This document shows positions 33,978 to 57,271 of a stretch of DNA of 63,945 bases, piece after piece; the stretch's first letter is position 1, and the number at the start of each line of letters is the position of its first letter. The translations under genes and the position numbers were made by a program. Where the stretch lies: the NCBI RefSeq assembly GCF_001953305.1, contig NZ_MTFE01000010.1, forward strand, positions 1,672,037-1,735,981, given 5' to 3'. Under the pieces are notes generated by a model, which did not search any database, had not been told where the DNA came from, and saw nothing but the letters and a program-made list of their open reading frames with translations. Origin of the DNA: Cnuella takakiae. Its GTDB lineage: Bacteria; Bacteroidota; Bacteroidia; Chitinophagales; Chitinophagaceae.

Positions 33978-35039
33978 ATGTTTAGAAGGGAGTTTTTGGC
34001 CAAACTAGCAGCCTACATCACTGGCACTGTAGGTATCATCGTGAACTACGATGCACTAGAAGTAATCATCACCAAATTCAGTGAGCGCCTGCATGATAAT
34101 TTCTTACCAGAAAAGAACCAGGAGCTTATCAGGCAAATCTTCAGGATTCTTCCCTACCAAACCACCATTGTACCTGCAAGTAGCAATCCCCGCATTGAAG
34201 AACAGCTCAAAAAGATAAGCAGGGAAACGCCTATTAGAGAAGACGCGGACTTGCTCGACTACTTCTCCACCGCCACCCTCCGCGCCTCAGAAGCCTTCTG
34301 CCCTATATTTCTTAACCAAGAAAAGGCAGACATGAAGGATTGCAGGTTTGGGTACCGTCAGTGGGATAAGGTATTGAATGCGAGCACCACCAACAACATA
34401 TTGGCACTCGGATCACCCACTTCAAACTATGCCATCAGAACGGCTATGTTCTATGACAACATCCCGGATAAGAAGCTTTGCTTTAGAATGGATCCGGAAG
34501 CACCAACATATGTAACTACACCCTACCAGTTTGCATTGGATGAAGCTGAAATAATGCGCTTTGGCAATCCTGGTGACCGTCTCTACCATGCAAAAGGTAA
34601 GGAAGGGCAAAAGGGAGAGCAAATACCTAACTGGGGCTTGAAAACAGGTGAAGAGCAGTTGATACTTCCCAAAGTGAACCCTGCAGATGGACTTTTGCTG
34701 GAAGATTTCTTGGTGATTTCCATGATGCCCAACACTTTTCATCCGGATAACGTTGATAGGAATATTGCCGTGATTTGCATTGGAGGCACACACAGCTTAG
34801 GCACAATAGCTACCAAAAACCTCCTGCAAAGCGAGAGTTGCCTGCAAGCATTAAAAGACCGGCTGGAATCAATGGACTCTCCTCCTTACTGGCAGGCTGT
34901 ATTTAGAATTGAGCTGGAACCCTTTACAGAAAAGTTTAGTAAAATGAGCCTAATGGACGCTCAGAAAGTAGGTATTGAAGACAAAACTAAGCTTGTTGAT
35001 TGGGCCACGAAGCTCTATGATCAACGTAGCAGGAATTAA
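33978..35039 (+). CDS. Unrecognised protein, possible Rossmann-like sensor
   Basis: 353 residues. The N-terminal 25 (FRREFLAKLAAYITGTVGIIV) are weakly hydrophobic and may be an anchor or a helix. Two motif blocks stand out: NILALGSPTSNYAIR (residues about 138-152), and MPNTFHPD...IAVICIGGTHSLGTIATKNLL (about 253-285), where a strand ends in a Gly-rich turn. In some bacterial proteins a G-G-P-x-x-N block and a PNPFNP...AGCHGFGT block occur in the same order, and this may be a distant member. Function unknown. It is a single gene in the AT-rich cargo part of element 1. Confidence 0.6.
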   Translation: MFRREFLAKLAAYITGTVGIIVNYDALEVIITKFSERLHDNFLPEKNQELIRQIFRILPYQTTIVPASSNPRIEEQLKKISRETPIREDADLLDYFSTATLRASEAFCPIFLNQEKADMKDCRFGYRQWDKVLNASTTNNILALGSPTSNYAIRTAMFYDNIPDKKLCFRMDPEAPTYVTTPYQFALDEAEIMRFGNPGDRLYHAKGKEGQKGEQIPNWGLKTGEEQLILPKVNPADGLLLEDFLVISMMPNTFHPDNVDRNIAVICIGGTHSLGTIATKNLLQSESCLQALKDRLESMDSPPYWQAVFRIELEPFTEKFSKMSLMDAQKVGIEDKTKLVDWATKLYDQRSRN

Positions 35040-35092
35040 AACGGGTTAAAAGCCTTTTTTGAATCCTTTTCCATTATCTCTATACTATCCAA

Positions 35093-35311
35093 CTATACAA
35101 CCCTGGTTTTTATTTCGCCATTTTTCTTTTCGTACTTGGCAAAGTATTCTGTCAAAGCAGTTTCTATAACATCTTTGATTTTTAGCCGGTCCCAATAAGC
35201 AACATTTTTGGTTTTCTCTAATAATTCTGTTTTGATAATAAAGGTGGCACGCTCTTCACCTTCTTTTGTACCTTTTTGAGTAGATTTCTTTGTAGAGTCT
35301 TGATTTGCCAT
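35093..35311 (-). CDS. Small ribbon-helix-helix-like DNA-binding protein
   Basis: 72 residues. A charged flexible N-terminus (STKKSTQKGTKEGEE) is followed by RATFIIKTELLEKTKNVAYWDRLKIKDVIETALTEYF, which reads as a beta strand and two helices of an RHH (CopG/ParG-like) fold. Likely a transcriptional or segregation factor. It lies beside the internal integrase gene on the same strand, 105 bp away. Confidence 0.6.
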   Translation of the reverse strand: MANQDSTKKSTQKGTKEGEERATFIIKTELLEKTKNVAYWDRLKIKDVIETALTEYFAKYEKKNGEIKTRVV

Positions 35312-35354
35312 GGTTTAAAAGTATACAAGAAGCGGCAAATTGAGTAATATATGT

Positions 35355-35365
35355 TTACAAATATT
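35355..35365 (+). repeat. TTACAAATATT repeat, copy 1
   Basis: TTACAAATATT followed by ATTG; a direct copy lies at 37056-37066. The two flank the internal integrase and the Cys-cluster gene. AT-rich and short, so only a weak candidate for nested-element ends. Confidence 0.3.
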
Positions 35366-35415
35366 ATTGTTAATAATTAATTGGGTTTATTTATTTTGAG
35401 CTGTTTGGGGTTACA

Positions 35416-36483
35416 CTAATCGATTATTCTTCCAATTTCCTCATCTACCCTCTTATTTGTCAGGTGGTAATATACCCTTGTATGTTTTGTATCGGTATGA
35501 CCTAGAATGGCAGCAGTGAGCTCTATGCTCACTCCAGCCTCTGCCAGCATCATGCCGGCACTATGGCGGGAAGTATGGCAGGGAATATTTTGTTCAATAC
35601 CACAATCCTGTGCAATTTTTTTAAGCAATAGGTTGTATGGCCTATTTTGAACACGTAAGGGTTGCCATTGAACGGCCTCAAATAGCTGCTTGATCTTACC
35701 GCGAATCGGTAAGCTGACCATGTTTCTTGTTTTGACGAGTTCTTTTACAAGGCGATCATCAATGATATTCTTGTTTTTGTCAAAGGAAATCATATCGGAG
35801 TGTCTTAGCCCCGTATAGCAGCCAATAAGAAACCAAAGAGTGGCAATTCTCCGGTTAGGACTTGCAATAGCAGCATATTGCTCTAAAGCAATTATTTGTT
35901 TTTTCGTTAGGTAGGCTCTATTTGGATCCTTATATGCTGGTTTTTCCTTGTAATGCTTAACCTCATTGCGCTTGATTATATCATCATCGATAGCTTTATT
36001 GAGAATCAATGATATTGTTTTGAAATAATTCCAAATTGTATTGTTGTTCAACTTTTCAGTTATCAATTTAATATGTAGGTTTTCGCACCATTGTTTATCA
36101 ATATCTTCTATATCTAGTTCTGGATACCATGATTCTAACACTCGAAGCTTGCTTAGATATTGGTTGATGGTTGTTTCTTTTTTAGTGCCTTTTATTGACC
36201 AAAGACTGATACAGTGCCAAGCGTATTTGTAGAAGCTTGTTAGGGTGTCCTCATCTACTGGTATATCCTGCAAACGCTTTACTTCCCCTAATTTCTTGCT
36301 CAAAATTTTATTTAAATGGCGAGCTTGTGGATGATTTACAACCTTACCATTTGTAAACTGATCGGCTCGAACCTTTATCCTTGTTGATTTAAATTTTCTG
36401 ACATTCCCGTTGGTTACCCTAATAGTTACTGTTAGTCGGTCTTTGCTATCCAATCTCCCTTTAAGTATGCACTTGATAACCAT
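35416..36483 (-). CDS. Tyrosine recombinase (internal integrase)
   Basis: About 355 residues from MVIKCILKGRLDSKDR (a frame 36 bases longer is possible). An N-terminal arm-binding-like domain and SAM-like core-binding domain precede the catalytic domain. The full set of active-site residues is visible: CYTGLRHSD (Arg I), HTSRHSAG (His/Arg II) and LGHTDTKHTRVYY (His and Tyr nucleophile). It is distinct from the integrases at 53608 and 55410. It may belong to a smaller element nested in element 1, or act on invertible DNA nearby. Confidence 0.88.
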   Translation of the reverse strand: MVIKCILKGRLDSKDRLTVTIRVTNGNVRKFKSTRIKVRADQFTNGKVVNHPQARHLNKILSKKLGEVKRLQDIPVDEDTLTSFYKYAWHCISLWSIKGTKKETTINQYLSKLRVLESWYPELDIEDIDKQWCENLHIKLITEKLNNNTIWNYFKTISLILNKAIDDDIIKRNEVKHYKEKPAYKDPNRAYLTKKQIIALEQYAAIASPNRRIATLWFLIGCYTGLRHSDMISFDKNKNIIDDRLVKELVKTRNMVSLPIRGKIKQLFEAVQWQPLRVQNRPYNLLLKKIAQDCGIEQNIPCHTSRHSAGMMLAEAGVSIELTAAILGHTDTKHTRVYYHLTNKRVDEEIGRIID

Positions 36484-36529
36484 TTGCAGAGGTTTTATCG
36501 TGTTAAGATTGTAAAACAAGTAGTGTTAT

Positions 36530-37009
36530 TTATTGCAGTCGAAATCTTTCAATAGGCTTCAAAAGGTCTGCTGTAATCCCCACTTTTATGTCCTCTGGCC
36601 CCGAGTAACACCCAAACTGATCACCATTGAAAAGATAAGCTTTTGCCAAGCCACTACATCCTTTACCTATTTGAGAACACTCCAGTTTCTTTATACACCG
36701 GCTACATACTGGATGCATGCTTTCGTATAGCCTGTAATCCCTTAGAGCGATAAACCGATAGCCTGCTGCTTGGCATTTCAGTAAATGATTAACATGCGAG
36801 TTCCTCGTTAACTTGGTCACTATCACGTATGTAGGAATAGGATCATTGAAAGAATAAGCTAGTACAGCTTCTCCATGTTGCCCCATGAACCACTCTTTCT
36901 CCCTTTTTTGGATATTGGAAAACTGGTAAGAATTTAAAGCCCAGGCTGTTCCAGCTGCTTGAGTGAAAGCTTCTGGAAATTCTATGTCAATCTGTTTTTT
37001 AATAGGCAT
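36530..37009 (-). CDS. Hypothetical protein with four-cysteine cluster
   Basis: About 159 residues from MPIKKQIDIEF. The middle reads WFMGQHGEAVLAYSF...YVIVTKLTRNSHVNHLLKCQAAGYRFIAL, a pattern that could fit a small nuclease fold, but this is uncertain. Four cysteines in HPVCSRCIKKLECSQIGKGC probably bind a metal. It lies 46 bp upstream of the internal integrase gene and probably shares its transcript. Confidence 0.55.
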   Translation of the reverse strand: MPIKKQIDIEFPEAFTQAAGTAWALNSYQFSNIQKREKEWFMGQHGEAVLAYSFNDPIPTYVIVTKLTRNSHVNHLLKCQAAGYRFIALRDYRLYESMHPVCSRCIKKLECSQIGKGCSGLAKAYLFNGDQFGCYSGPEDIKVGITADLLKPIERFRLQ

Positions 37010-37533
37010 AACAAACGGTTTTATTTGAATCAAATGTAATAACTGTAAACATTTATTACAAATATTTTTGTGTTTATTTTTCGATCTATTGCTGAGCTAG
37101 TTTAAATAGTATTAGAAGTGCCTGTATTCAAGTTGCCTATTACTTACGATAATAGAAACTCATGTGACTTAATGAATCTTATTGACTAACGCTCCTCATA
37201 TTACAATACACCTTCATATGGTTTGCTGGCCTAGAATTTCCAAAAATTGCTGTCGGTTATACTGGTTTATGTTCTGACCTCAAGGTGAAACAGTTTATTT
37301 CATACTTTAGCTTTCTTTCCTTCCCCTAAGCAATTCATTTCCAATCCTTTAAAATGCTAAAGTTTATCTGATTAGGCCAAATTCGGGGCCTGTTAAACGT
37401 ATGTATAAATAATGTAATTGCTTCTTGAAATACAGTCTAGAACGTTGTTGGCATGTGCACCTGGCTTGCCAACCTACTAAGGCTTAAGATTTTTTATAAG
37501 AACCTATAACAACCTAATACAAAACCAAAACAC
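37010..37533. other. AT-rich spacer, 524 bp
   Basis: No gene is seen. It contains the second TTACAAATATT copy (37056-37066) and the upstream regions of the two divergent genes at its ends. No strong promoter or terminator was recognised. Confidence 0.5.
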
Positions 37534-40146
37534 ATGAAACGACAATTACTCTTGTCTGTGCTATCGGCTGTTGCCGCAATTAATCTTTACGGGCAAAACA
37601 CAACGCCTTACTGGAGTCTTGCTGGGAATTCAAACGGTGTTGGCACTGCCAAGTTGGGAACTACCAACTCCATTCCACTAACTCTCATCACAAACAACGT
37701 AGAGCGAATGCGCATTGATCCTACTACCGGCAGAATAGCGGTGGGTGCCAGCTTTTTGAGAGGAAAGCTAACCTTGGTCAATAATGGAAGTACTCCTTCT
37801 GCAGTATGGGTGAATAATGGAACACCGCTATTTACAGGCTTTGCAGAAGCCACGGGAGGTAATGGAGATTACATCATCAACATGGCATCAGACGCTAGGA
37901 CCACTAGAGCTAACTACATGGCCAAAAGAGCAAGAGGAACACTTGCAAACCCCTTAGCCGTCATTGATAACGACTTTATTACTTCAATACAAGCATCTGG
38001 TTACGACGGCACCCAATTCCAGAACCCTGCAACCATCGATTTTTTTGTTGATGGCACCCCGTCAGCCGGGAATGTGCCTGTTCGAATATCTATGTCAACT
38101 GGCGCCAATCTAACTACAAGAAAAGAGCGTCTTAAGATTGGAAATAGCGGAAACATTGATTTCAACAGTGGACAACTGTATGTTGATCAAGCAAACGGCA
38201 ATGTTGGTATTGGAACTTACCAAAGTGCAGGTAAACTTACCATTCACAACAATGGCTCTTTGCCTTCAGCTCCATGGCTGGCAGATGGAACCATGTTTAC
38301 AGGCTTTGCAGAAGATAAAATAGGTGGCGCAGACTTCATAGTTAACATGGCTACCAACACACCTGATTCGCGACCAGTGTTTATGGGTAAACGATCACGT
38401 GGAACACTGGGAGCACCCCTTCCGGTAGTAGATAAGGATAAGTTGTTTGGCATCCTGCCAGCTGCGTTCGATGGGAAATCATTTCAAGTTCCTGCTTCCA
38501 TAGATTTTATTGCAGATGGAGCTCCAACTGCTGGTAGTGTGCCTACCCGAATTGCATTTTTTACAGGTGCGAATGGTGCCACAAGAAAAGAAAGATTCAG
38601 TATTGGAAGTAATGGTAGTCTGAATTTCAATAGCAACCAATTGTTAGTAAGCGAAACCGCAACCGAAAGAATTGTGCGCCTCAATAACGGGCAGGTTGTG
38701 CTTTCAACTGGTATATCATCACCTGCAGGAACGATGAATCTAAACAGTTCCAAGTTGTACATCAATATGGACCAGTATGAAAAGGAAGCAGAAAAGCCAA
38801 TACCACCTGATGCACTAGTAGCTGTAGGCGGCAACATGTTTCTAACCGGTGGTGTTCATTCTGAAAACGGATCGTTGATTATGGACAATGGTAGTATCGA
38901 TTTGACAGGGAGTTTAAGTATTAAATATGGAGGAATTATTGCCAACTCTGGAGATGGCTCAGGTAATAGAGGTAAAACAATGATTCAGGGTGGAGAAGTG
39001 GAAATTACTGGGGAAGATTCTTACATCAACCTTCCTGGACCTTATGGAGGAATTTCCGTAAGAGGCACTTATCCAATTTTCGCCAAAGGAATTTATAACG
39101 GTAGAGGCTGGGAATTCGAAAGTAGGGGACTTCATGCTGAAGGAAATACCGAAGGTGTTTATGGAAGAAGCTATGGTTATTCATACTTAGATATTTATAG
39201 CGCTAGGAGATCTTCTGGGGTTTATGGTTTTAATGAAACTATTGGTGTTGGTGTAAGAGGGACTAGCAATAACGGTTTAGGCGTGCTAGGATCTTCAAAG
39301 TTTTCACATGGTATTTTTGGAACTACCGAAAGCGACACTGCTTTTGCAGGGTATTTCTCTGGTAAAGTCTTTAGCAGCAATGGCTATTTCAGCGCCTCCG
39401 ATAAAAACTTGAAAAAGAACATCAAGAATCTTCCTGAGGGCCTTGACATTATCAATAAACTAGAGCCAAAATCTTACGAGTTCCGAAACGATGGCGCAAT
39501 GGCGCAGATGAATTTACCAAAAGGAAAGCATTTTGGGCTATTGGCACAGGATGTAGAAAAAGTGCTGCCAACTTTGGTGCACACTTCTGAATTTGACCCT
39601 ATGTTCACCCTTGCACCTGCAAGCTATGATTCTACAGGAAAGAATGCAGTATTGCCGCCAGTAACAGGATCCCAAGAGAAAATTGCCTACAAAGCCATCA
39701 ATTATACTGAATTGATTCCGGTGCTAGTTAAGGGGATGCAGGAGCAGCAAAGCCAAATTGAAGAGCAAGGAAAGCAAACGGAAAACCTTATGAGACAGGT
39801 AGCAGAACAGCAAAAACAAATTGAGGACTTAAAAGCTATTGTAAATAAGCTTTCTGGAATTAGCACAACTTCTGCAAGCCTGAGCAGTGCAAAACTCGGT
39901 AATCCGATTCCTAACCCTTCTAAAAGCTCAACTGTCATTTCCTACAATGTGCCAGAAGGTAGCAGATCGGTTTTTTTGCTAGTCACAGACATGAAAGGAG
40001 CTTTAATAAAACAAGTAAAGCTAAATGCAAAGGGTAGTAGTCAAATAAATTTAAATACTACAGCATTGGCAGCGGGTACTTATACCTACAACTTAATTGT
40101 TGATGGTACAAAACAAGAATCGAAGCAATTGATCATAACACGGTAA
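37534..40146 (+). CDS. Large surface protein: tail-fibre-like repeats, S74 chaperone and T9SS domain
   Basis: 870 residues with a signal peptide (MKRQLLLSVLSAVAAINLYGQ). Residues about 80-220 and 233-372 are two copies of a roughly 140-residue repeat (FTGFAE..., RKER, LYV). Glycine-rich fibre-like sequence with YGR and GVYG turns follows. At about residue 619, SASDKNLKKNIKNLPEGLDIINKLEPKSYEF starts an S74 intramolecular chaperone (as in phage tail spikes), followed by a Gln-rich coiled coil (about 730-775). The last 80 residues (GNPIPNPSKSSTVISY...AAGTYTYNLIVDG) are a type A T9SS sorting domain. It is thus probably a trimeric fibre exported by the host's type IX system and displayed on the cell. 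Confidence 0.85.
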   Translation: MKRQLLLSVLSAVAAINLYGQNTTPYWSLAGNSNGVGTAKLGTTNSIPLTLITNNVERMRIDPTTGRIAVGASFLRGKLTLVNNGSTPSAVWVNNGTPLFTGFAEATGGNGDYIINMASDARTTRANYMAKRARGTLANPLAVIDNDFITSIQASGYDGTQFQNPATIDFFVDGTPSAGNVPVRISMSTGANLTTRKERLKIGNSGNIDFNSGQLYVDQANGNVGIGTYQSAGKLTIHNNGSLPSAPWLADGTMFTGFAEDKIGGADFIVNMATNTPDSRPVFMGKRSRGTLGAPLPVVDKDKLFGILPAAFDGKSFQVPASIDFIADGAPTAGSVPTRIAFFTGANGATRKERFSIGSNGSLNFNSNQLLVSETATERIVRLNNGQVVLSTGISSPAGTMNLNSSKLYINMDQYEKEAEKPIPPDALVAVGGNMFLTGGVHSENGSLIMDNGSIDLTGSLSIKYGGIIANSGDGSGNRGKTMIQGGEVEITGEDSYINLPGPYGGISVRGTYPIFAKGIYNGRGWEFESRGLHAEGNTEGVYGRSYGYSYLDIYSARRSSGVYGFNETIGVGVRGTSNNGLGVLGSSKFSHGIFGTTESDTAFAGYFSGKVFSSNGYFSASDKNLKKNIKNLPEGLDIINKLEPKSYEFRNDGAMAQMNLPKGKHFGLLAQDVEKVLPTLVHTSEFDPMFTLAPASYDSTGKNAVLPPVTGSQEKIAYKAINYTELIPVLVKGMQEQQSQIEEQGKQTENLMRQVAEQQKQIEDLKAIVNKLSGISTTSASLSSAKLGNPIPNPSKSSTVISYNVPEGSRSVFLLVTDMKGALIKQVKLNAKGSSQINLNTTALAAGTYTYNLIVDGTKQESKQLIITR

Positions 40147-40302: not shown

Positions 40303-42981
40303 TTACCTTCTTTCCAAATACCTGAACTCATGAGGGCCGGTAAAGGTTTTGGGGTGTGCATTGTCGGATATTTCATGTAATACCACCTGGCCGGAGCAAT
40401 CAGTGAAATTCATGTCGTAATGCAGTAACATGAATGTTTTGCCTTTGGTCTGCGCTGTGATATCCGTTATTTGCCATTGGTGAATGCAATCCCCTGGCGC
40501 TGGCAGGTTCAATCCGTCCGTATCCCCTTCAAAAAGACACAATACCCGGCGCTTCGCATACCATACCGCCATAGCCTGCCACCAGCCAAATGGCTGCTTG
40601 AAGCCAGGGTAAGCCGGGTGAGTGAACTTTCCTGCAAGCAGATATTTGCCGGTGCCGTCTTTCCTCAATAGAGCCCCTTTAAACAGCTTTCTCGGGCTGT
40701 CTGATACATAGACCTGCTGTTCGTGTTTTGACTGGTATTTACCACCCTGAAAAACCCTATTATACTGCCCTGAGTATTCAGCATAACCGCCGTTTATGTA
40801 TGGATCGTAGGTGAAGCGAAGGTTTTGGTAAAACACATCGGTGTTATCCTGCGAGAAATCAGGGCGAACATTCAAGGTGTGCAAGGTGAGGTACACCAAG
40901 CCTCCAACCGGGGAGGCCGGGGCTTTCCAGGTAAGGGTAGCCCAATCAGGATCAGTATAGTCAACGAATGTTTGTGCTGTAGCGCTTTGGCTGCCCCAGT
41001 TATCACCAGCCTGTACCCATGTTTCTTTATCGTTTACCCGACCTAACCACCAGAAAGTGCCATCATTGCCGGCAAGCCTTACCGTCATAACGAATACAGA
41101 TTGCCCGTAGTTGCTGCCGGTTTGTTTCAGCTTGTAGTCGATACTTGCTGTGAACCGGTCTTTTGCTTCTATCGGGATGGGGTTGCTTTCAATGTGGTTG
41201 CTATTGGGCACCTGATTGGTTTGTGGGGTAAACACTAGGTAGCGCTCTTTTTCGTACCCTTCAAAGAATACCCGCTTAATATAGGCTTGTGAGGTGATGG
41301 TATTGGGTGAATGGGCAAACCCAGCTTTCATTGTCCAATCCTCTACCTGGTATGCTTTCCAATCCTGCCCACCCATGGGGATGATCATTGCACCCCGGCT
41401 GAAATTGATGTTATCAACCAATTCTTTGTGGAATTCATAATTGAACACCTCTTTTACTTCCCGGTGCGGCCGGTTGTAGATAACGTTTTGCTGTTCGTTA
41501 ATCCAGCTTACTTTTTCATCAAACCCCAAGAGCTTTACCGGCTCTATCATTTCCGGGTTAGGGGTAAGGATACTGGGAATAAGGGCACCGGCGCTGTCAA
41601 ACTTCCAAACCTTGTATGTGCCACCTTGAAGTTCGTCGGGCCTTACAATCCACCATTTGCCGCCATTGAACTGCAAGAATGCATCTTCACCCAATATTCT
41701 TTGCAACACTTCATAGCAGGAAATAGAAGTGCCCACTTCATCTTCAAAGGTTTTTGCATCCAAATAGGTGGTTGCATACATGGGTAGGCCGGGGTTGTTT
41801 TCTTCCCACAGGTTGTGCACCAGGTTTATTCCCAACTCCAACCCGGTCTTTTGCAGTGCCCAGGCCACATACTGAATGAGAGTAAAAGTGCCTTTTGGGT
41901 TCTTGCCTGCTTTGTCCGTCAGGGGCACATCTTTCAGTAAGCCTAAACCATCGGTTGCTACCAGCTGTACCTCATTAGGGTAAGGCAGAAAGGGCTCCAT
42001 TGCATCAGAAAAGGTGAGGAAGCCCTGGAAGGTTGGCACCTGCACGTTGTTGGTGTAGTGTACCACATACCACCGGTTATCTTCTCCCTCTCCAAAATTG
42101 GACAGGTTCACTTCTTCGGATCCGAGAAACCGAATGATTGCCTCTTTCGCCCTAATGGGTGTAAATGGGCTTTCTTCATTGTCAACAATGGAAACCGAAA
42201 AGGCATTGCCTGCTCCATCCAAAGGAATGATCTTGTCAACTGCTGTCGGGTTCTTCTCTGATGTATCGATAATGTCAACGGTTTGCAGTGTTTCCTCAAA
42301 GTTTCTCCATTGAAGGCGATAAATAAGCCGTTCTGGGGCATTTGGGCTGGTAGGCGGTACAATGTTGCCAAACTCGGATGCAACCGCTTCTATGCGGTAT
42401 CTATGGCCCTCCTGGATGATAAAGGTGAATGTATTGGGAATGGCAGGGTAGCTGGACACGTTGCTGGTGGCTTTATAAAGCACGGTCTCAGTGGTTAGAT
42501 CGGTTACTGCCAACCAGTAAAAACCAGGCAGGCCTTCAAAGATGGGCTGCTGTACGGTTATTGTTGAACCTGCTGGCGCATCCATGGTGCCGGCTTCGCT
42601 GATATAGCTTTCAAGTTTTCGCACACCATCAACATCAAGGAACAGGTTACTATCAACAAAGGGCTGCGGTTGGTCCTTGTTTACCCATTCAATAGCCGGG
42701 ATGCTGGCCGGCAGCGGCTGGGCAACGGCACATTGGCTACTGTTAGGCACAATGCTTTGCACCGCATAGGGGTAGTTTGTCCGGGGGAAGATGATTACCA
42801 GATCAGCACCCAGGCAAAACCGGGTCACTTCCTTGTTTTCAACATAGTTGCCATCTGTCCGGGGAAAGATAGCCGGGATGGGTTGGCCATCTTGTGCACG
42901 GGGCTTGATCTTTCGGGTGGTTTCGTCGTATTCAACAAGGATAGTACGGCCTGCTGTTTCAAACTGGAATAATAGTTTCAT
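40303..42981 (-). CDS. Large phage tail-tip/baseplate-like protein
   Basis: 892 residues without a signal peptide. The middle segment (VSIVDNEESPFTPIRAKEAIIRFLG...NRWYVVHYTNNVQVPTFQGFLTFSDAMEPFLPYPNEVQLVATDGLGLLKDVPL) has the pattern of the large tail-tip proteins of Bacteroidota prophages, where P-F-x-P-I...DG-L-G-L-L-K-D recurs. The C-terminal half is beta-rich. It is the last gene of the minus-strand operon, yet no other tail, capsid or portal gene is present. It could be a relic, or a piece used to modify a helper phage. Confidence 0.65.
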   Translation of the reverse strand: MKLLFQFETAGRTILVEYDETTRKIKPRAQDGQPIPAIFPRTDGNYVENKEVTRFCLGADLVIIFPRTNYPYAVQSIVPNSSQCAVAQPLPASIPAIEWVNKDQPQPFVDSNLFLDVDGVRKLESYISEAGTMDAPAGSTITVQQPIFEGLPGFYWLAVTDLTTETVLYKATSNVSSYPAIPNTFTFIIQEGHRYRIEAVASEFGNIVPPTSPNAPERLIYRLQWRNFEETLQTVDIIDTSEKNPTAVDKIIPLDGAGNAFSVSIVDNEESPFTPIRAKEAIIRFLGSEEVNLSNFGEGEDNRWYVVHYTNNVQVPTFQGFLTFSDAMEPFLPYPNEVQLVATDGLGLLKDVPLTDKAGKNPKGTFTLIQYVAWALQKTGLELGINLVHNLWEENNPGLPMYATTYLDAKTFEDEVGTSISCYEVLQRILGEDAFLQFNGGKWWIVRPDELQGGTYKVWKFDSAGALIPSILTPNPEMIEPVKLLGFDEKVSWINEQQNVIYNRPHREVKEVFNYEFHKELVDNINFSRGAMIIPMGGQDWKAYQVEDWTMKAGFAHSPNTITSQAYIKRVFFEGYEKERYLVFTPQTNQVPNSNHIESNPIPIEAKDRFTASIDYKLKQTGSNYGQSVFVMTVRLAGNDGTFWWLGRVNDKETWVQAGDNWGSQSATAQTFVDYTDPDWATLTWKAPASPVGGLVYLTLHTLNVRPDFSQDNTDVFYQNLRFTYDPYINGGYAEYSGQYNRVFQGGKYQSKHEQQVYVSDSPRKLFKGALLRKDGTGKYLLAGKFTHPAYPGFKQPFGWWQAMAVWYAKRRVLCLFEGDTDGLNLPAPGDCIHQWQITDITAQTKGKTFMLLHYDMNFTDCSGQVVLHEISDNAHPKTFTGPHEFRYLERR

Positions 42982-43015
42982 TTTAGCTTGTTTTATTGTT
43001 TTGTGAGGGTTTGGA

Positions 43016-43279
43016 TTAAAGCGTTGTTTGGTGCGTAGGTTTTACATTCACGAAGACGATGTGTTTTCCCTGGTTGTTGTCGTGGAACTCCTGGAATTCC
43101 TGCCTTGTTATCGGGTTGCTTGTTGTTGCGGGTTCATCAGGCCAACGACAGTATACTTCATCATCACAATTCCAGAAGTAAACCTTCTCTGGCCTTAGTT
43201 CATTGATACTAAGCTTGCCTGTTTGCAGGTCTTTAAGCGCTTGGAGTTTTTCTTTTCTAGATACTGGTCGACTTTTCAT
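43016..43279 (-). CDS. Small hypothetical protein, paralogue A
   Basis: 87 residues. Pattern: basic start, KLQALKDLQTGKLSINELRPEKVYFWNCDDEVYCRWPDEP...ITRQEFQEFHDNNQGKHIVFV. It shares this layout with its neighbour at 43299 (R/K-EKL..L..G...I..L.P.K.Y.W.C.D..Y..WP..P). The pair probably arose by tandem duplication. Function unknown; part of the minus-strand phage-like operon. Confidence 0.65.
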   Translation of the reverse strand: MKSRPVSRKEKLQALKDLQTGKLSINELRPEKVYFWNCDDEVYCRWPDEPATTSNPITRQEFQEFHDNNQGKHIVFVNVKPTHQTTL

Positions 43280-43298
43280 ATTGGTACTTTTTGATTGA

Positions 43299-43526
43299 TT
43301 ACTTGATTATAAAATGCATCCCGGGGTTTTCATCACAATACCTGTTGAAAGCCTCTTCGCTCATGGGTTCTGACTGTTGCTGTGGCTTACCTGGCCAAAG
43401 GGTGTACATACCGTCTTCGCACATCCACTGGTATTTCTTTGTTGGCTGCAGGTCTGTGATGCTCTTCTTGCCCTCTATGAGTGCGCGGAGTGTTTCAATC
43501 TTTTGTTTTCTATTATTTGCTTTCAT
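43299..43526 (-). CDS. Small hypothetical protein, paralogue B
   Basis: 75 residues, KIETLRALIEGKKSITDLQPTKKYQWMCEDGMYTLWPGKP...MSEEAFNRYCDENPGMHFII. Clear paralogue of the 43016 product (same order of helix, YxW-C-D, W-P, and C-terminal helix and strand). The genes are 19 bp apart. Function unknown. Confidence 0.65.
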   Translation of the reverse strand: MKANNRKQKIETLRALIEGKKSITDLQPTKKYQWMCEDGMYTLWPGKPQQQSEPMSEEAFNRYCDENPGMHFIIK

Positions 43527-43532
43527 AAGCTT

Positions 43533-43829
43533 TTAGTTGTTGGATCCTTTTACAATCCGGTTATACAATTCATCCAACTGTTCATCGGTTAGCCTTTCTA
43601 GATCGATCTCGTTGGATATGCTTTGCATTTTGGGCATCACATAAGGCAGTAGGTCGGTGTAAGCCTTAACCTTATCGCGGCCTTCCAGCTTTTCGAATTC
43701 TTCTGCGATGACTGGAAAGTTCTTTTCCAGGAAGTCGCTCATCAATTCCCGGATCTTGCTTGTTGCTTTGTTGGCGGAACCTTTGGGCCTGCCCTCCGGA
43801 TTTCCTGATTTTCCTTTTTCAAAAGGCAT
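43533..43829 (-). CDS. DUF5681 protein, small-terminase-like
   Basis: 98 residues. The start MPFEKGKSGNPEGRPKGSANKAT is the signature of DUF5681, a domain common in phage and satellite DNA-packaging regions. It is followed by a long helical region (SKIRELMSDFLEKNFPVIAEEFEKLEG...YTDLLPYVMPK). By position and size it could be a small terminase subunit or a related DNA-binding adaptor. No large terminase gene is nearby. Domain recognition is good; the packaging role is inference. Confidence 0.7.
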   Translation of the reverse strand: MPFEKGKSGNPEGRPKGSANKATSKIRELMSDFLEKNFPVIAEEFEKLEGRDKVKAYTDLLPYVMPKMQSISNEIDLERLTDEQLDELYNRIVKGSNN

Positions 43830-43831
43830 GG

Positions 43832-44332
43832 TTACTGTTTTTTGTTGTTGTTTACAATTGATGGAACGTTTTGGTATTGTGGCACCTCAAAGCCTGCAGC
43901 CTCCCATTGAGCGAGGAAGTCGGGAAAGGTTTTGCAGATCCAGTAAAAGCCGCCGGCAGATATGATGCGCTGTTGCTCCTTCTTTTGGGCTTCCCTCTGC
44001 CGGTCTGCACCTATTTTAATCTCGATGGATAGGGAACGACCCTTGTAGGTGCCGCGGATATCGGCTATTCCTTTCCGGGTGTTTCCTTTGGTCCATTTAA
44101 CCTGTCCATTCATCACCCGGGGCATGCCCATTGTGTTGGTGCGGGAAGCTTCGCCATGGGGCAGGAAGTTGATAAAATCTTCTATTGCTGTTGTGAGCCC
44201 GTTGGAGGTTGTATCGTTGTATGGCTTTGTCTTGAGTGCATAGCCTCCGGATAGATCAAAGAAGCCGGGGGATTTGGCCTTGATGTGCTCCAGCTTCATC
44301 CGGCGGAGTAGTTGTTTCCAGTTGGGGTACAT
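43832..44332 (-). CDS. VRR-NUC-type nuclease
   Basis: 166 residues. The C-terminal half KGIADIRGTYKGRSLSIEIKIGADRQREAQKKEQQRIISAGGFYWICKTF fits a VRR-NUC/PD-(D/E)xK nuclease: the Asp of ADI, the E-x-K of IEIK, and the Gln-rich helix (KEQQRI). Phage-encoded members resolve or trim branched DNA. It ends 2 bp before the DUF5681 gene and begins 4 bp after the primase-like gene, so it is part of the replication and packaging operon. Confidence 0.75.
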   Translation of the reverse strand: MYPNWKQLLRRMKLEHIKAKSPGFFDLSGGYALKTKPYNDTTSNGLTTAIEDFINFLPHGEASRTNTMGMPRVMNGQVKWTKGNTRKGIADIRGTYKGRSLSIEIKIGADRQREAQKKEQQRIISAGGFYWICKTFPDFLAQWEAAGFEVPQYQNVPSIVNNNKKQ

Positions 44333-44336
44333 GGTT

Positions 44337-45419
44337 TTACTGTTTTACTTCTGTATTGTAATCCCACATTACCGGGTAACCAGCATCTGTAAGTGCTACA
44401 CCTGCCGTTTGATCCCTGATTAAAAGCAGGTCGGCTAAATCCTGATCCTGCAGGTTTTCTCCTAACCGTTTTTCTAGCAGGTCGGACACCCGGAACCGGC
44501 CAGGTATAGCCTCCCTAATGCGGTCCACCCTGTCACACCATTCCTGGTAGCAGGTTTTGCCGGTTTTCTTGTTGAATATGCCATGATCGGGAAAGAAGGT
44601 AACCGAGCGTCCTTTTAGTGCCTGGTAGGTTTCGTATTCACGCCACCGGCAACCGCTGGCACCACCTGTTGCAAGCCATACGCAGCCGGGCATGTAAACG
44701 CTTGCTATAATGGCCGTCTTTTCACTTTCCGTGATGCACACCCGTTGCTCATTTGTGCTTTCAGCAAGCAAATGCTGCCCAAAAAAGACCTGCTGCAGGT
44801 TTAGGGCTTTGGTGCTTCCGTCAATGTATTTGCCGTAAATAAGGGAGCATGGCCGCTCTGTTGTGATGGTGTCAAAGGATCGGGTAAACCGGTTGTATTG
44901 CTCTACTGTGGCGCCTTCCTTTACCCGTTTGCCGGTTGCCTGGTTGTGTAGCATGATTTTGATTTGCCGCACGTTGCCGGCTGTATCAATTTGGGGGAAT
45001 ACCGCGGCGCCTTTCCAGTGCCGGGAAGTGCCTATCAGGTATTCCTCGCAAAGCTTGCCGGCTATCCTGCCACCAAATAGTGAGGTGAGGAAGTGGTGAA
45101 AGTTGTTTTGCTCATAATTGCGGAGTGATTGGTATAGGTAATGCCCTGGCAGAAAGTCCACCGGCTGTACCGGTTCGGGTGCCTGCGCTGATCGCTGCTG
45201 CCAGGCTTGCGGCCGGTCGTTTCCTGTTTCCTTCTTCCATTCGGACCATTTGTATTCGTAACCGCAACCTCCTTCCCGGTCGCATCTGCCTATGTGGTCT
45301 GGCAGGTATTCTTTTGTTTCGGAATCAACTACCCGGACGAACCTTTTCCGGCCACATTGTGGGCAGTTGTGCTTTTTGCTGGTTTTGTCAAGGCTATAGC
45401 GGTAAGTGAGGGTACTCAT
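44337..45419 (-). CDS. Primase-like zinc-binding/Toprim protein (DUF6371-like)
   Basis: About 360 residues from MSTLTYRYSLDK. The N-terminus has a zinc ribbon (HNCPQCGRKRF ... GRCDREGGCGY). A middle region (FFGQHLLAES..RVCITESEKTAIIASVYMPGCVWLATGGASGC) and SVTFFPDHG form a Toprim-like fold with the acidic ESEKTA and FPDH sites. Similar proteins in Bacteroidota mobile DNA are called DUF6371. It likely primes replication of element 1, together with the RepA-like ATPase upstream. The repeat array at 45467-45571 lies between the two genes. Confidence 0.72.
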   Translation of the reverse strand: MSTLTYRYSLDKTSKKHNCPQCGRKRFVRVVDSETKEYLPDHIGRCDREGGCGYEYKWSEWKKETGNDRPQAWQQRSAQAPEPVQPVDFLPGHYLYQSLRNYEQNNFHHFLTSLFGGRIAGKLCEEYLIGTSRHWKGAAVFPQIDTAGNVRQIKIMLHNQATGKRVKEGATVEQYNRFTRSFDTITTERPCSLIYGKYIDGSTKALNLQQVFFGQHLLAESTNEQRVCITESEKTAIIASVYMPGCVWLATGGASGCRWREYETYQALKGRSVTFFPDHGIFNKKTGKTCYQEWCDRVDRIREAIPGRFRVSDLLEKRLGENLQDQDLADLLLIRDQTAGVALTDAGYPVMWDYNTEVKQ

Positions 45420-45466
45420 TTGGGGGAGTGTCAAGATGAATAAAGAGTGTGTAGGTGGGGGTATTA

Positions 45467-45571
45467 GTATCAGGTATCAGGTATCACCCTATATATAGGG
45501 TGTGATACCAATCGATACCATTCCTCAAGTATTAAATAATACCTTTTGATACCTAGTTGATACCTAATACC
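45467..45571. repeat. Iteron and palindrome array, candidate origin of element 1
   Basis: Three GTATCA copies (45467, 45474, 45481) run into a perfect 18-bp palindrome (CACCCTATA and its complement, 45485-45502), followed by TGATAC or CGATAC at 45503, 45513, 45547 and 45558 and partial copies ending at 45570. The left units are the reverse complement of the right ones. It lies just downstream of the RepA-like ATPase gene and before the primase-like gene, the classical place for a replication origin. Confidence 0.65.
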
Positions 45572-45573
45572 TG

Positions 45574-46701
45574 TCAGGCTGCTTGCCTATAAAACCCGTC
45601 CGGGTGGACATCGATTAGCCCGGCTGATTTCATCTCCTTGACTTTGGTTTTTGCTGTTTGTGCAGCATAGCCTCCCGTCTCGGTAATTGCCTTGCACAAA
45701 TCCGAATAGCAAAGGGCTTTGGGGGGAGCCAGCACCTTTAGGGCCAACAGTTCAAGTTTTGCCTGACTGTTGTTTTTGCGGGTTGCTCCGGTCCCGGCTA
45801 CAGCTGATGCATCAGTAGTTATAAACATCCCGGCATCATCGCACCATCTGTAGGCGCTGGTAATTGGTGCACTGTTGCGGTTCTTACCGTTTTCAAATTC
45901 GGTGGTAATGATGCGGGTGGCCTCATCCACCTTTTTTGCCAGTAGTACGCATTCAGACTCCCGGCACACTTCGGATCCCAGGTGCCCGCGGGGTTTGCTT
46001 GCATTTATACCGGGGTTTGGGTGCAGGGTGGTGATGATCGATACTTGGTGCTTTACGGTCATCTCTCGCAGCCAAATGCGGCACTCAATAGCTTGTGCTA
46101 AATCATTGACATCTTCCACCAGGTCGCCCGCACCATCTATGATCACAATACCATATTGGTTTTCCTGCAGCATCTGCTCAATTATCTTCTTACGTTCTGC
46201 TGCCCGGCTAATGGATCGAAGGCCAACCAGCATAACACGGTCGATGATAGTTCCTGGGGCAATGCTTGCCCGTTTACACATCCGGTAAAAGCTATTCCAT
46301 ACATCTGTTGTCGTGCGTTCGTTGTCAACGAATAGCAGGCGCCCACACAATAAGGAAACAGCAAAGCCTAATGTATCAGCCTCAGGATTCAGGATGTTCG
46401 CTGCGATGCTTTCCCCGATACTGCTTTTACCAACCCCAGGGAGGGCAATAATAGAAAGAAGGTTTTGGTAAGTAAGTACTGGAGTACCGCTGAGGGTAAG
46501 GAGTGCAGGCACCTCTGGAGGCTTATTATCCCACGTAGGAATAAATACATTCTTCCAGAAACTAGGCAGCTCATTATCCGTCTGCAAAACTTCATTCTGA
46601 ATATCTGAGGTTGTAAGCGTTGGCGCTTTGTTATAGCGAGCTAAAGGTGTATCTTGTTCCGGGTTTTGAATTGTATTTGACCCGCTATTCTGTTTAGCCA
46701 T
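45574..46701 (-). CDS. RepA-like AAA/RecA-fold ATPase
   Basis: 375 residues. RecA-type ATPase with Walker A ALPGVGKSSIGE, Walker B YGIVIIDGAGDL and the following HQVSIITTLHPNPG strand of DnaB/RepA-type hexameric helicases. The C-terminal roughly 90 residues (LELLALKVLAPPKALCYSDLCKAITETGG...KVKEMKSAGLIDV) look like a winged helix that may bind the iterons. It is thus the likely replicative helicase or initiator of element 1. It lies 4 bp after the HTH gene and before the repeat array. Confidence 0.8.
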   Translation of the reverse strand: MAKQNSGSNTIQNPEQDTPLARYNKAPTLTTSDIQNEVLQTDNELPSFWKNVFIPTWDNKPPEVPALLTLSGTPVLTYQNLLSIIALPGVGKSSIGESIAANILNPEADTLGFAVSLLCGRLLFVDNERTTTDVWNSFYRMCKRASIAPGTIIDRVMLVGLRSISRAAERKKIIEQMLQENQYGIVIIDGAGDLVEDVNDLAQAIECRIWLREMTVKHQVSIITTLHPNPGINASKPRGHLGSEVCRESECVLLAKKVDEATRIITTEFENGKNRNSAPITSAYRWCDDAGMFITTDASAVAGTGATRKNNSQAKLELLALKVLAPPKALCYSDLCKAITETGGYAAQTAKTKVKEMKSAGLIDVHPDGFYRQAA

Positions 46702-46705
46702 GGAA

Positions 46706-46987
46706 TCAGCGGGTTTTTTTATTGTTAGACTCTAAGGCTTCAACTATCCTGGGCCAGTTATAACGAACACTGCCTCCAAGCTTAAAGAATGGGATCTTGC
46801 CGCGCTTCTCATAGAGCCTCACTGTAGGCTCCGAGACAGCCAGGCGCTTGCACAATTCTTCTCTTGTAATAATTTCTGCCGGCTGTGGGGTTGATTGGGG
46901 TTGCTGTGCCTGCAGCATGTTGTTGATGGCCGCGGCTATCTCCTCAAGGCTGTAGCTTGAAAGGAGCAATTTGTTTGTTCCTTCCAT
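46706..46987 (-). CDS. Helix-turn-helix protein (excisionase/AlpA-like)
   Basis: 93 residues. ITREELCKRLAVSEPTVRLYEKRGKIPFFKLGGSVRYNWPRIVEALE is a MerR/excisionase-type winged HTH ending the protein. The N-terminal helix (SSYSLEEIAAAINNMLQAQQ) may dimerize. It is the second gene of the minus-strand operon and could act as excisionase or activator for element 1. Confidence 0.8.
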   Translation of the reverse strand: MEGTNKLLLSSYSLEEIAAAINNMLQAQQPQSTPQPAEIITREELCKRLAVSEPTVRLYEKRGKIPFFKLGGSVRYNWPRIVEALESNNKKTR

Positions 46988-46990
46988 AGC

Positions 46991-47176
46991 TTAGGAGTTT
47001 GTGGTTTGGTTGTTGAGGAATGCCTGAATCTCTTCCGGCTTGTAGCGTGTTTGCCTTCCGGCCTTGTGCCCTTTCAAGGTGCCGGCTTTTTTCCATCTGT
47101 TGAGGGTTGAAACAGATACACGGAGGTAGCTCGCTGCCTCCTTTTTTGTGAGCAGGGTTGCGTTTGCCTGTGACAT
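46991..47176 (-). CDS. Helix-turn-helix protein (excisionase family)
   Basis: 61 residues, almost only an excisionase-type HTH: LLTKKEAASYLRVSVSTLNRWKKAGTLKGHKAGRQTRYKPEEIQAFLN. It is the first gene of the operon, 3 bp before the next HTH gene. Two such proteins in succession are usual at the control end of satellites and integrative elements. Confidence 0.82.
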   Translation of the reverse strand: MSQANATLLTKKEAASYLRVSVSTLNRWKKAGTLKGHKAGRQTRYKPEEIQAFLNNQTTNS

Positions 47177-53607: not shown

Positions 53608-54975
53608 TCAAACCGCTTCAAGGGGGGCAGCAGGTGCCGCTCCCCAAGCTTTGGCCATTACCGCTTTTTTACGTTCTCCAGCCACATCGACATAGCGTTT
53701 AAATGACTTGTATGTGGTGTGGCCCGTGATCGCCATTACTTCCTGTGAAGCCATACCCTTTTCAAGTGATAGGGTCGCAAAGGTCCGGCGGCCTGAATGT
53801 ATGGTCACCAAGTCATGCTTCTTTAACACTTCAGATACCTTTTTTACTCCATACTCCCGCACCCGCTCGATGGGTGTATCGATCCCTGCCAGCTGGCAAA
53901 GCTCCTTTAGGTATAGGTTTGTCTTTTGGCCGCTGATGATGGGCAGGGGCTTTAATCGTTCCTTGTATTTATCCAGTACTGCAGCGGAGTATTGGTTTAA
54001 AGGTATGTCCAGCTTTTGCCCGGTTTTTACCGCGGTCTTCTTTATGCTGCCATCTTTCCGGATGTGGGCCCGTTTAAGGTCTGCCAGGTCGGAGTAACGG
54101 AGCCCGGTTGTGCAGGAAAAGCAAAACACATCCCGCACTTGCTCCAGTCGTTTGTTTTCGGACAGATCCAGCTCCCAAAGGCACAAAAACTCGCTTTCAG
54201 TAAGTGCAATCACTTCATAATCGCTATCCTTCCGGCTTACCTTGTAATCCCTGTAGTCCTGCCTTACCGGTATCTTATAAATGGTACGGGCATAGTTGAG
54301 CAGGGTTTTAAGGGTGCTCATTTGCTTTGCGCTGGTGGTGTTATTCATCGGATCCACCGCGGCGCCCTTTTCATCTATCCTTTCGCTGACCAGAAATGCA
54401 TGGAAGGAGCGGAGGGTGGGCACATCCAAACCCTCAAAGGTTACCCGCTGCCGGGTGTTGCGCTCAAAGAAGGCAAGATGGGCAGCCAGGCCGGTGTAAA
54501 CCTTAATGGTGCCCTCTTTGTGGGTAGTTGTTACATCCTTTGCAAACTGCCGGATAAAATCAACAACATAGGTTTTAGGCTGTTCTTTGGCAGCCAGGGG
54601 CCGCTCTGTAGCTTTTAGGGTATCAACTACCATCTTTGCAGTAAATGTGGCTTTATCCAGTCTGAAACGGGCTTCTACATCGGCAACTTTGCGCTTTGCT
54701 TCTTCCAGCTTGCTGTTTAGTTCTTCTACCTCGCCGGCCATTAGGATCAGTTCCGCGGCAACATCGGGTGCAGCCTTCTTGGATGCTTTCTTGTCAAGGT
54801 AAACGGCCAGCTGCTTGTTTGCATCCCAGTTCAGGGGCAGCAGCTTTACGCCCGGCACTCCATAATATTTGCGCTCGCCTTTAACCTGATAGATGAGGTG
54901 CACCGGGCAGGTGCCGTCTTGGTTGGGTTTATCGGTACGGAGCCAAAAGCGGATGGTTGTTTTATCCTTAGCCAT
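53608..54975 (-). CDS. Tyrosine integrase of element 1
   Basis: 455 residues. An arm-binding N-terminal domain (IRFWLRTDKPNQDGTCPVHLIYQ), a coiled segment (ELNSKLEEAKRKVADVEARF), a core-binding domain and a catalytic domain. Active-site residues: CTTGLRYSDL (Arg I), IHSGRRTFATL (His-x-x-Arg), ITGHTTYKSFKRYV (His, Tyr). It starts about 170 bp from the right attachment site, with arm-type repeats between, and is expected to join the element to the tRNA-Pro end. Confidence 0.93.
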   Translation of the reverse strand: MAKDKTTIRFWLRTDKPNQDGTCPVHLIYQVKGERKYYGVPGVKLLPLNWDANKQLAVYLDKKASKKAAPDVAAELILMAGEVEELNSKLEEAKRKVADVEARFRLDKATFTAKMVVDTLKATERPLAAKEQPKTYVVDFIRQFAKDVTTTHKEGTIKVYTGLAAHLAFFERNTRQRVTFEGLDVPTLRSFHAFLVSERIDEKGAAVDPMNNTTSAKQMSTLKTLLNYARTIYKIPVRQDYRDYKVSRKDSDYEVIALTESEFLCLWELDLSENKRLEQVRDVFCFSCTTGLRYSDLADLKRAHIRKDGSIKKTAVKTGQKLDIPLNQYSAAVLDKYKERLKPLPIISGQKTNLYLKELCQLAGIDTPIERVREYGVKKVSEVLKKHDLVTIHSGRRTFATLSLEKGMASQEVMAITGHTTYKSFKRYVDVAGERKKAVMAKAWGAAPAAPLEAV

Positions 54976-55145: not shown

Positions 55146-55158
55146 CTGTCTTCCCGAC
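55146..55158 (+). repeat. Attachment site between elements 1 and 2
   Basis: CTGTCTTCCCGAC, identical to the tRNA-Pro 3' end at 28403-28415. It is the right end of element 1 and probably also the left end of element 2. Confidence 0.85.
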
Positions 55159-56639: not shown

Positions 56640-56689
56640 ATGAAAAAGGCTCAATTAATTACAGTAGACTGTAATGCATACTGCAAATA

Positions 56690-56720
56690 ATTTACAATTT
56701 ACAATTTGTAAAATGTAAAT
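56690..56720. promoter_or_regulatory. Inverted-repeat operator before toxin-antitoxin pair
   Basis: ATTTACAATTTAC (56690-56702) and GTAAAATGTAAAT (56708-56720) form a 13-bp inverted repeat with one mismatch and a 5-nt spacer. It ends 20 bp before the start of the winged-helix gene and probably serves autoregulation. Confidence 0.6.
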
Positions 56721-56740
56721 TTCCATTGTACTTTTACAGC

Positions 56741-57262
56741 ATGGAACGCAATAATGGCATGCGGCCCCAAGATGTAGTAATCCTGCTGAAGATCCTGCTC
56801 TGGCAGGGGAGGAAGTGGCTAAAAAAAGACTTGGCGGCGGAGCTTTACCTTAGTCCAGCAGAAGTTGGCCACTCACTAAACCGCTCACAGCTTGCTGGAT
56901 TGGTTGATCCTACACAAAAGAAGCTTATGAAAAAAGCTTTTGCAGAATTCCTGTTACATGGATTTGCTTACGTTTTTCCTGTAAAGCCAGGGAGCATGGC
57001 TATAGGTATTCCAACAGCTTACAGTGCGCCTGTACTGAATCAATATGTAGTTAGCTCCGAAACTATTGTCTGGCCCCACCCGGAAGGTAGAATGAAAGGC
57101 CAGTCGGTTTCCCCTCTATACAAAGGCGCTATTCAGGCAAGCCTGAAAGATAAAGCGCTTTATGATCTGCTTTGCCTTTGCGATGTGCTTAGGGTTGGAC
57201 GGGTTCGGGAAAAACAAAAGGCCAAAGAGCTTTTGGAAAGCCAAATTTCTCAGGATGTTTAA
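56741..57262 (+). CDS. Winged-helix antitoxin-like protein (AbiEi-type)
   Basis: About 173 residues from MERNNGMRPQDVV (an ATG 15 bases upstream lies nearer the operator). The N-terminal winged helix reads DVVILLKILLWQGRKWLKKDLAAELYLSPAEVGHSLNRS. The rest is a small alpha/beta domain. It is followed 9 bp later by a nucleotidyltransferase, the usual order of AbiE-like or MenAT-like systems, so it is likely the antitoxin and repressor. Family naming is by context and fold. Confidence 0.68.
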   Translation: MERNNGMRPQDVVILLKILLWQGRKWLKKDLAAELYLSPAEVGHSLNRSQLAGLVDPTQKKLMKKAFAEFLLHGFAYVFPVKPGSMAIGIPTAYSAPVLNQYVVSSETIVWPHPEGRMKGQSVSPLYKGAIQASLKDKALYDLLCLCDVLRVGRVREKQKAKELLESQISQDV

Positions 57263-57271
57263 TCAAGTTTT

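Follow-up and report, generated by a model that had tools for sequence, protein, structure and literature searches.

A run of genes at 40303-47176 of a stretch of DNA from Cnuella takakiae belongs to what is probably a phage satellite, one that would supply its own packaging adaptor together with a single substitute subunit of the virion. The stretch analyzed here, called the window (63,945 nucleotides, G000:C1:1672037-1735981, from a genome of 5.70 Mb in 10 contigs; all positions are those of the window), had originally been predicted to hold the core of such a satellite. That reading is supported, and it extends to a family of islands: across related islands in several genera, the pattern emerging from sequence comparison is one virion gene per island, with the kind of gene changing from island to island. 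The satellite nature of the element is likely, and this assessment rests on gene content, gene order, attachment repeats and the siphophage homology of the virion gene.

Replication genes, a probable packaging adaptor and a single tail gene

The open reading frames (ORFs) named in the original prediction exist where it placed them, on the minus strand, and from 47176 to 40303 they run in one direction; strand and spacing suggest a single operon. Two regulators of the HTH_17 or excisionase type (helix-turn-helix, HTH; 46991-47176 and 46706-46987) were borne out by PHROGs and by Pfam (HTH_17, 7.8e-14 and 1.4e-6). They are followed by a RepA-like ATPase with a visible Walker A motif (45574-46701) and by a primase-like protein (44337-45434) with a DUF6371 domain (Pfam, 3.2e-45) and a zinc ribbon (7.6e-23), as had been anticipated. 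The identity of the ATPase holds in so far as it has clear relatives (44-50%) in G409, G490, L099 and G464 (G, genomes; L, loci), whereas its profile matches are weak (PHROGs primase/helicase, 0.015; Pfam, 0.11). A PDB profile search with the RepA alignment gave nothing useful, and viral contig scans with RepA, as a single query or as an alignment, found nothing.

Between these two genes lies a probable replication origin (45435-45573). Five copies of GGTATCA (TGATACC on the other strand; both strands counted) fall within 139 bp around the palindrome CACCCTATATATAGGGTG at 45485-45502, a count reached in none of 500 mononucleotide shuffles, and the origin-like array noticed earlier is in this sense real. 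Similar TATATA-centred palindromes with short repeated words occupy the same place in G409, G464, G490, G384 and G535, where the repeat count was reached in 2, 16, 0, 10 and 0 of 500 shuffles and where the commonest words of G384 are ATATATA and AAAAAAA. Repeats lacking the palindrome were found in G458, G943, G968 and G569 (3, 0, 0 and 0 shuffles of 500), and G321 has neither clearly, with 59 of 500 shuffles reaching its count. The palindrome between the ATPase and primase genes is kept in several islands and the iteron words flanking it vary by island; such island-specific words are a possible specificity code of RepA. Own replication genes and an origin, one criterion for a satellite, are indicated by gene content and by the array of iterons and palindrome.

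Downstream of the primase-like gene come a nuclease-like protein (43832-44332), a DUF5681 protein (43533-43829), two sm proteins (copy 1, 75 aa, 43299-43526; copy 2, 87 aa, 43016-43279) and an 892-aa tail protein (40303-42981), all on the minus strand. The nuclease had been assigned to VRR-NUC; the wording "nuclease-like" is fair, given PHROGs matches (endonuclease, 3.7e-5; Holliday junction resolvase, 1.2e-3) and relatives (36-49%) in the G943, G968, G410 and G320 islands, but Pfam returned no VRR_NUC match for it. The DUF5681 protein (Pfam, 2e-7) is a probable adaptor of small-terminase type. A viral contig scan, biased in that its peptides included the N-terminal motif, gave 66 IMG/VR loci with DUF5681 relatives, several of them near-identical; in 32 of them a following ORF no shorter than 350 aa begins -120 to +200 bases from the end of DUF5681. 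Ten of these 32 ORFs were given to Pfam, of which eight matched terminase large-subunit models (two below the curated cut-off) and two matched nothing. Because a large terminase gene comes next in many, not all, phage loci, the small-terminase role guessed earlier for DUF5681 is likely, not proven.

The tail protein has no Pfam match. By tblastn it is related to a hypothetical protein of Flavobacterium phage 11b and a structural protein of Cellulophaga phage phi39:1, in agreement with the tail-tip-like label it had been given. In phage 11b the relative comes after the presumed tape measure gene (labelled by reading, with BLAST support), and each of the six IMG/VR contigs picked out by a three-sequence profile has it 3' of a gene resembling a tape measure, immediately behind in four and past small ORFs in two; there the tape measure label was taken from length and order, with BLAST backing among five of the six. 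By homology and gene position the protein is akin to the hub or tip proteins of siphophage tails. Matches of its structure model in BFVD (best 1.3e-28, to an uncharacterised phage protein; 2.8e-19 to a phi12:1 structural protein) agree with this sequence-based identity, and matches of the model to CBM4-like domains in the PDB (E 3e-6) amount to no more than a hint that the protein has a sugar-binding domain. Roughly 200 N-terminal residues have no significant relative in the phage-type and island loci compared. A PDB profile search with the tail alignment gave nothing useful, viral contig scans with the window tail or the G281 tail as single query found nothing, and a phrog_33803 search of 345 class genomes gave matches, mostly weak, in five. 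The hubs of three satellites (window, G943 and G281) fall at three separate places in the phage tree, which points to capture of a hub on more than one occasion.

Capsid, portal and large terminase had been reported missing, and neither the profile searches, for the window ORFs that they covered, nor BLAST with phage queries recognised any of the three. In the BLAST comparison 583 ORFs of 28 phage-type loci served as queries (1e-4), the loci having been picked by similarity to tail, DUF5681 and capsid proteins, which favours matches to those. Within the 26.7-kb element described below, only the DUF5681 and tail proteins were matched, which leaves an incomplete set of virion genes, a second criterion for a satellite. 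A full head module with both terminase subunits, of the kind carried by capsid-forming phage-inducible chromosomal islands (cf-PICIs), was not found in the element by ORFs, PHROGs or phage-ORF BLAST. Queries with RepA, DUF6371, nuclease and sm proteins had no match at 1e-3 in 24 phage-type loci, where virion genes had relatives.

Related islands and an exchangeable virion gene

The closest relative is a 15.4-kb tRNA-bounded island in G409 (integrase 55%, RepA 50%, DUF6371 44%), which carries a tape measure and a terminase small subunit (TerS; phrog_606, 2.8e-43; GP3_package, 2.9e-24). Capsid, portal and large terminase were not seen there, with ten ORFs compared to PHROGs and the rest by BLAST alone. 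Islands closed by repeats were found in G569 (8.3 kb), G464 (9.2 kb), G458 (7.8 kb), G373 (10.8 kb), G281 (8.1 kb) and G409 (15.4 kb); the repeats, 14-57 bp long, lie at tRNA genes in five of these and, with 15 bp, at a tmRNA gene in one. No second repeat was found for G943 and G968 in the stretches searched, and the limits of these two were set by eye in the phage-ORF comparison.

The search for islands of the same gene order, proposed with the original prediction, found it in other genera. Seven islands have both DUF5681 and sm together with readable sequence beyond (window, G943, G968, G464, G569, G458 and L245), and in all seven one recognised virion gene comes next, giving the order DUF5681, sm, virion gene (five of five when the window and L245 are left out). 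This last place, the slot, holds a tail hub in the window and G943, a tape measure in G968, a DUF6046 baseplate protein in G458, and an HK97-type capsid protein in G464, G569 (Pfam, 1e-21 and 8e-24; also PHROGs) and L245. In G943 the order is integrase, HTH, RepA, BT4734-type primase, nuclease, DUF5681, three sm ORFs (two of them weak) and tail hub. G968 has an integrase region near-identical to that of G943, a different ATPase, DUF6371, nuclease, DUF5681, sm and tape measure. L245 is a 5.2-kb IMG/VR contig, obtained by capsid similarity, with DUF5681, sm, a 108-aa ORF and the capsid protein, and is probably itself an island. The large tail protein of the window, earlier thought unusual for a satellite, is one case of this one-virion-gene pattern, in which the kind of gene varies.

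Exchange at the slot can be followed between G943 and G968. They share a 2.9-kb block of 97.4% identity that begins at the tRNA-Leu and takes in the integrase, and a 2.0-kb block of 85% identity spanning nuclease, DUF5681 and sm. The ATPase and primase genes that lie between the two blocks are different, and beyond the second block stands a hub in G943 and a tape measure in G968. A 57-bp shared stretch lies behind the hub in G943 and before the tape measure in G968, and a further 164-bp stretch behind the G943 hub matches the end of the tape measure gene and the DNA downstream of it in G968. By this comparison the two islands differ in two cassettes, one made up of the replication genes and the other being the slot, and the borders of the slot are imperfectly clean.

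Phage ORFs matched the DUF5681 and slot genes of G943 and G968; DUF5681, sm (through L245) and capsid of G464; sm (through L245) and capsid of G569; a DUF5681-like protein and the tail of G281; the tape measure of G409; DUF5681 of G458; and two phage-like proteins of G373. Among eleven contigs obtained by capsid proteins, five carry tape measure relatives (L239 and L241-L244, with L241 and L242 alike), and L246 carries a 51% relative of the G281 tail. Because contigs fetched by capsids also carry tape measure or tail relatives, the single slot genes point to related siphophages. The tail and DUF5681 genes of phage kind, in an element as long and mixed as that of the window, might suggest a decayed prophage of which a replication module, a small terminase and a single tail gene survive. 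We regard this as extremely unlikely: six relatives are repeat-bounded islands of 7.8-15.4 kb, the gene order is kept across genera with different single virion genes, and the replication module is unmatched in the 24 phage-type loci searched. The missing structural genes were sought in close relatives of the element; such relatives were found, and the genes were unrecognised there.

The two sm ORFs of the window are paralogues (39% identical), and the family is common to related islands. A four-sequence sm profile, run on the loci collected up to that stage, matched only its source loci and, weakly (0.014), a small ORF beside TerS of G409. An sm search of 394 family genomes gave 14 genomes at E <= 0.01, and seven further stretches were then read; of 17 sm places, the reading left out four weak ones (E 0.004-0.006). 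The match in G405 was discounted by eye as an island, since the surrounding 19.9 kb show neither an integrase nor relatives of RepA or DUF5681. In G420 sm falls at contig borders: one contig stops shortly past it, and another begins within it.

DUF6371 itself is found at 35 places in 31 of 294 family genomes (the present one included). Thirty of the 34 other places were read, with only some of their ORFs given to profile libraries. Six of them (L067, L068, L069, L078, L080 and L091) have a clear adaptor or virion gene, L089 and L090 carry a nuclease, and L074, L081 and L086 have only weak matches to terminase small subunits (0.0017-0.056). The domain also stands beside an ATPase, with an integrase nearby, in Bacteroides plasmids with annotated mobilization proteins, and unannotated gut contigs with the DUF6371-ATPase pair have ORFs that read as relaxase-like. 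On these grounds the element could be an integrative mobilizable element of the NBU/Tn4555 kind with acquired phage genes, which we judge to be very unlikely: the PF03432 relaxase profile gave 25 matches in 32 genomes, none of them at any DUF6371 place (some islands lie at contig ends), the match in the window lies in a neighbouring element (61057-62040), and three mobilization queries had no BLAST match in 30 relatives. A MobV profile search matched nowhere at all and hence carries no weight against MobV, against which only the BLAST comparison with the three queries speaks. Four human faecal GenBank records with DUF6371, unannotated and titled "UNVERIFIED: Bacteriophage sp." (L028-L030 and L032), read in part as mobilizable elements and not as phages.

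Several further elements share parts of the plan. The 8.1-kb island at the tmRNA gene in G281 (L012 7417-15475), a genome of another family, has a different replication-type protein (no family match), a DUF5681-like protein and a hub gene, and no sm was found in it. In G373 (L091 4294-15077), 57-bp tRNA-Asn repeats enclose DUF6371, a serine recombinase-like ORF, a P4-type primase-like ATPase (by reading) and a 696-aa protein whose phage relative belongs to another type of phage (L152). L099 (CAMAZP010000063.1) is a 5.2-kb contig with a 44% RepA relative, two DUF5681 proteins and a serine recombinase-like ORF; both of its ends encode the same peptide, which suggests a possible circle. In L245 a 70-aa ORF before DUF5681 (1934-2146) reads like the start of a tape measure protein and is possibly a remnant of an earlier slot gene.

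Integration site and limits of the element

The outer left limit of the element is set at a tRNA-Pro(TGG) gene on the plus strand (28341-28415; ARAGORN and Rfam), whose 3' end (28403-28415) forms the left attachment repeat. Its 13-bp copy, the right attachment repeat CTGTCTTCCCGAC (55146-55158), adjoins IntR, a tyrosine integrase on the minus strand (53608-54975; Pfam), so that an integrase of its own and attachment repeats, a third criterion for a satellite, are present. Relatives of IntR occur in the islands of G409 (55%), G464 (44%) and G420 (42%), all with a related RepA; the G409 island starts at the 3' end of a tRNA-Pro(CGG), with the IntR relative at its far end and a 14-bp repeat. Because IntR relatives accompany the closest RepA relatives in other islands, and because the tRNA repeat adjoins IntR, this integrase fits the element, as the original prediction of an integrase at the element end would have it, and the other candidate, IntL (35416-36519), was rejected. 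The outer limits give an element of 26.7 kb.

Inside these limits lie host-type genes, namely two histidine kinases, an S74/type IX secretion protein and a DUF4440 protein that has another copy (86%) outside this region of the genome. The presence of these genes and of IntL makes cargo or later insertions likely and leaves the inner limits uncertain. The second integrase is accompanied by a 72-aa ORF and a gene for 167 aa at 35093-37033, a region that is likely a separate insertion, since DNA like that at 34895-35272 recurs at two other places in the genome. The S74 protein (37534-40146, 870 aa), with an S74 (endosialidase chaperone) domain, was rejected as a tail fibre: it carries a type IX secretion sorting domain and is a host-type secreted protein.

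RepA was not found in the other genomes of the genus that were searched, where the flanks are not collinear; a second element lies on the right, and no empty site is shown. This neighbour (55410-62040), with a tyrosine integrase (55410-56639), a CHC2/Toprim primase-like protein (59590-60534) and a MobA/VirD2-type relaxase (61057-62040), is probably an integrative mobilizable element beside the right attachment site. The tRNA-Pro gene looks like a hot spot in the genus. In G588 (L138, G588:C4:62500-81000) about 16 kb with integrase-like and restriction-type ORFs lie between tRNA-Pro and a partial copy of it, and in G585 (L141) several partial copies stand in a row.

Several observations weigh against a satellite that brings its own adaptor and virion part. 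At 26.7 kb the element is much larger than its relatives, and with host-type genes and another integrase in the regions at 28.4-40 kb and 47.6-53.6 kb its true limits are uncertain. In this genome the tail gene occurs only once, no helper has come to light, and the structure model of the tail protein is poor (pLDDT 48). In 34 of the 66 DUF5681 loci no ORF of at least 350 aa follows, many of these being near-identical contigs with small genes downstream and a few ending with the contig, and in the DUF5681 model (pLDDT 72) a TerS fold was not recognised, the best PDB match being at E 9.0. Neither an adaptor nor a virion gene was recognised in 24 of the 30 other DUF6371 stretches, within the ORFs profiled, and the same holds for G1014, which has sm genes. 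Finally, BLAST places weak matches of the 87-aa sm protein (sm87) within tape measure ORFs of phages (5e-4 in L147 and 0.009 in 11b), which are taken as chance.

Proposed mechanism and comparison with known satellites

As a satellite, the element would be moved in and out of the tRNA-Pro gene by IntR, as the repeats suggest, and replicated from the iteron and palindrome origin by RepA and the DUF6371 protein. DUF5681, by its place in phages, may act as its own small terminase and direct the large terminase of a siphophage helper to satellite DNA, probably together with the sm proteins, a guess from gene order. The tail protein would then be a substitute subunit entering the tail tip of the helper, so that particles formed around satellite DNA carry the satellite hub. 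Related islands might do likewise with a tape measure, a DUF6046 baseplate protein or, as in the Ccm of SaPIbov5, a capsid protein. Evenly balanced in our judgment is the broader proposal of a Bacteroidota satellite family with a common plan (integrase, HTH, ATPase, origin, primase, small terminase and sm) and an exchangeable virion slot, whose lineages brand or reshape helper particles at different points (shell, tail length, hub or baseplate) and switch between them by slot exchange. Such switching perhaps follows or escapes helper resistance.

The slot gene may instead be a weapon, a look-alike subunit that poisons tail or capsid assembly, cuts phage release and protects the population. Published accounts, here and below as given in the available portions of the sources, hold that the tail-assembly blocker Tai is prevalent in phage-inducible chromosomal islands (PICIs), with evolved phages suggesting an interaction with tail protein J (PMC11364771), and that Tab acts on the tape measure (PMC10884400); the target of the slot also changes between islands, as a defence locus might. 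This explanation seems rather unlikely to us, as the slot proteins are long relatives of functional subunits, not short inhibitors, the DUF5681-sm-slot order ties the slot gene to packaging, and a capsid homologue such as SaPIbov5 Ccm can be built into the particle. A substitute part rather than a weapon is favoured, not settled. The pair G943 and G968, in which the adaptor block is shared but the slot gene is not, makes the function of the slot directly testable.

Elements of the NBU/Tn4555 type are mobilizable elements. Like them and like the Bacteroides DUF6371 plasmids, the islands have an ATPase-DUF6371 pair next to an excisionase and an integrase, but a mobilization protein stands there in the place where the islands have nuclease, adaptor, sm and virion gene.

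Most named satellite families come from Firmicutes and Gammaproteobacteria, others being marine or from Streptomyces, and their known strategies act mostly on capsid and packaging, as far as the available portions of the literature describe them (further background in PMC11389934, PMC10803314 and PMC10690885). If the islands are satellites, the Bacteroidota have a family of their own. PICIs and phage-inducible chromosomal minimalist islands (PICMIs) share with them an integrase, an excisionase-type HTH, own replication genes with an origin, and sizes of about 10 kb; the replication genes here, however, are of the Bacteroidota ATPase and DUF6371 kind, and PICMIs are described as being without identifiable packaging genes. 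As in the cf-PICIs, which encode components of capsid formation and packaging with both terminase subunits (PMC10690885), the island makes a virion part itself, but these islands have one virion gene and no large terminase that was recognised. Charybdis elements are likewise small with tail-like genes, and their authors suggest satellites that provide their own tail elements (PMC12324425); unlike the present islands they are marine, about 4.6 kb long, with one clade in archaea, and replication, terminase and other hallmark genes are described as unrecognised in them. Tai and Tab show tails as a point of attack, and like the proposed substitute hub they act at tail assembly; as described, they are inhibitor proteins, not relatives of tail subunits.

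We found no report of satellites with a tail hub or tape measure as their single virion part in the literature searched (open-licence PMC papers), and a one-part slot would surprise a specialist. The nearest precedent, by analogy, is the Ccm protein of SaPIbov5, a cos-type Staphylococcus aureus pathogenicity island (SaPI) among the PICIs, which fills the pentamers of the particle and alters its shape and size (PMC8569155). The islands of G464, G569 and L245 resemble SaPIbov5, by its description, in carrying one capsid-protein homologue, whereas other islands hold a tail hub, a tape measure or a baseplate protein in the same place of the operon. If this interpretation is true, the single-part strategy of the Ccm type extends to tail length and the tail tip, the parts that decide attachment and injection, and this extension to tails appears to be new.

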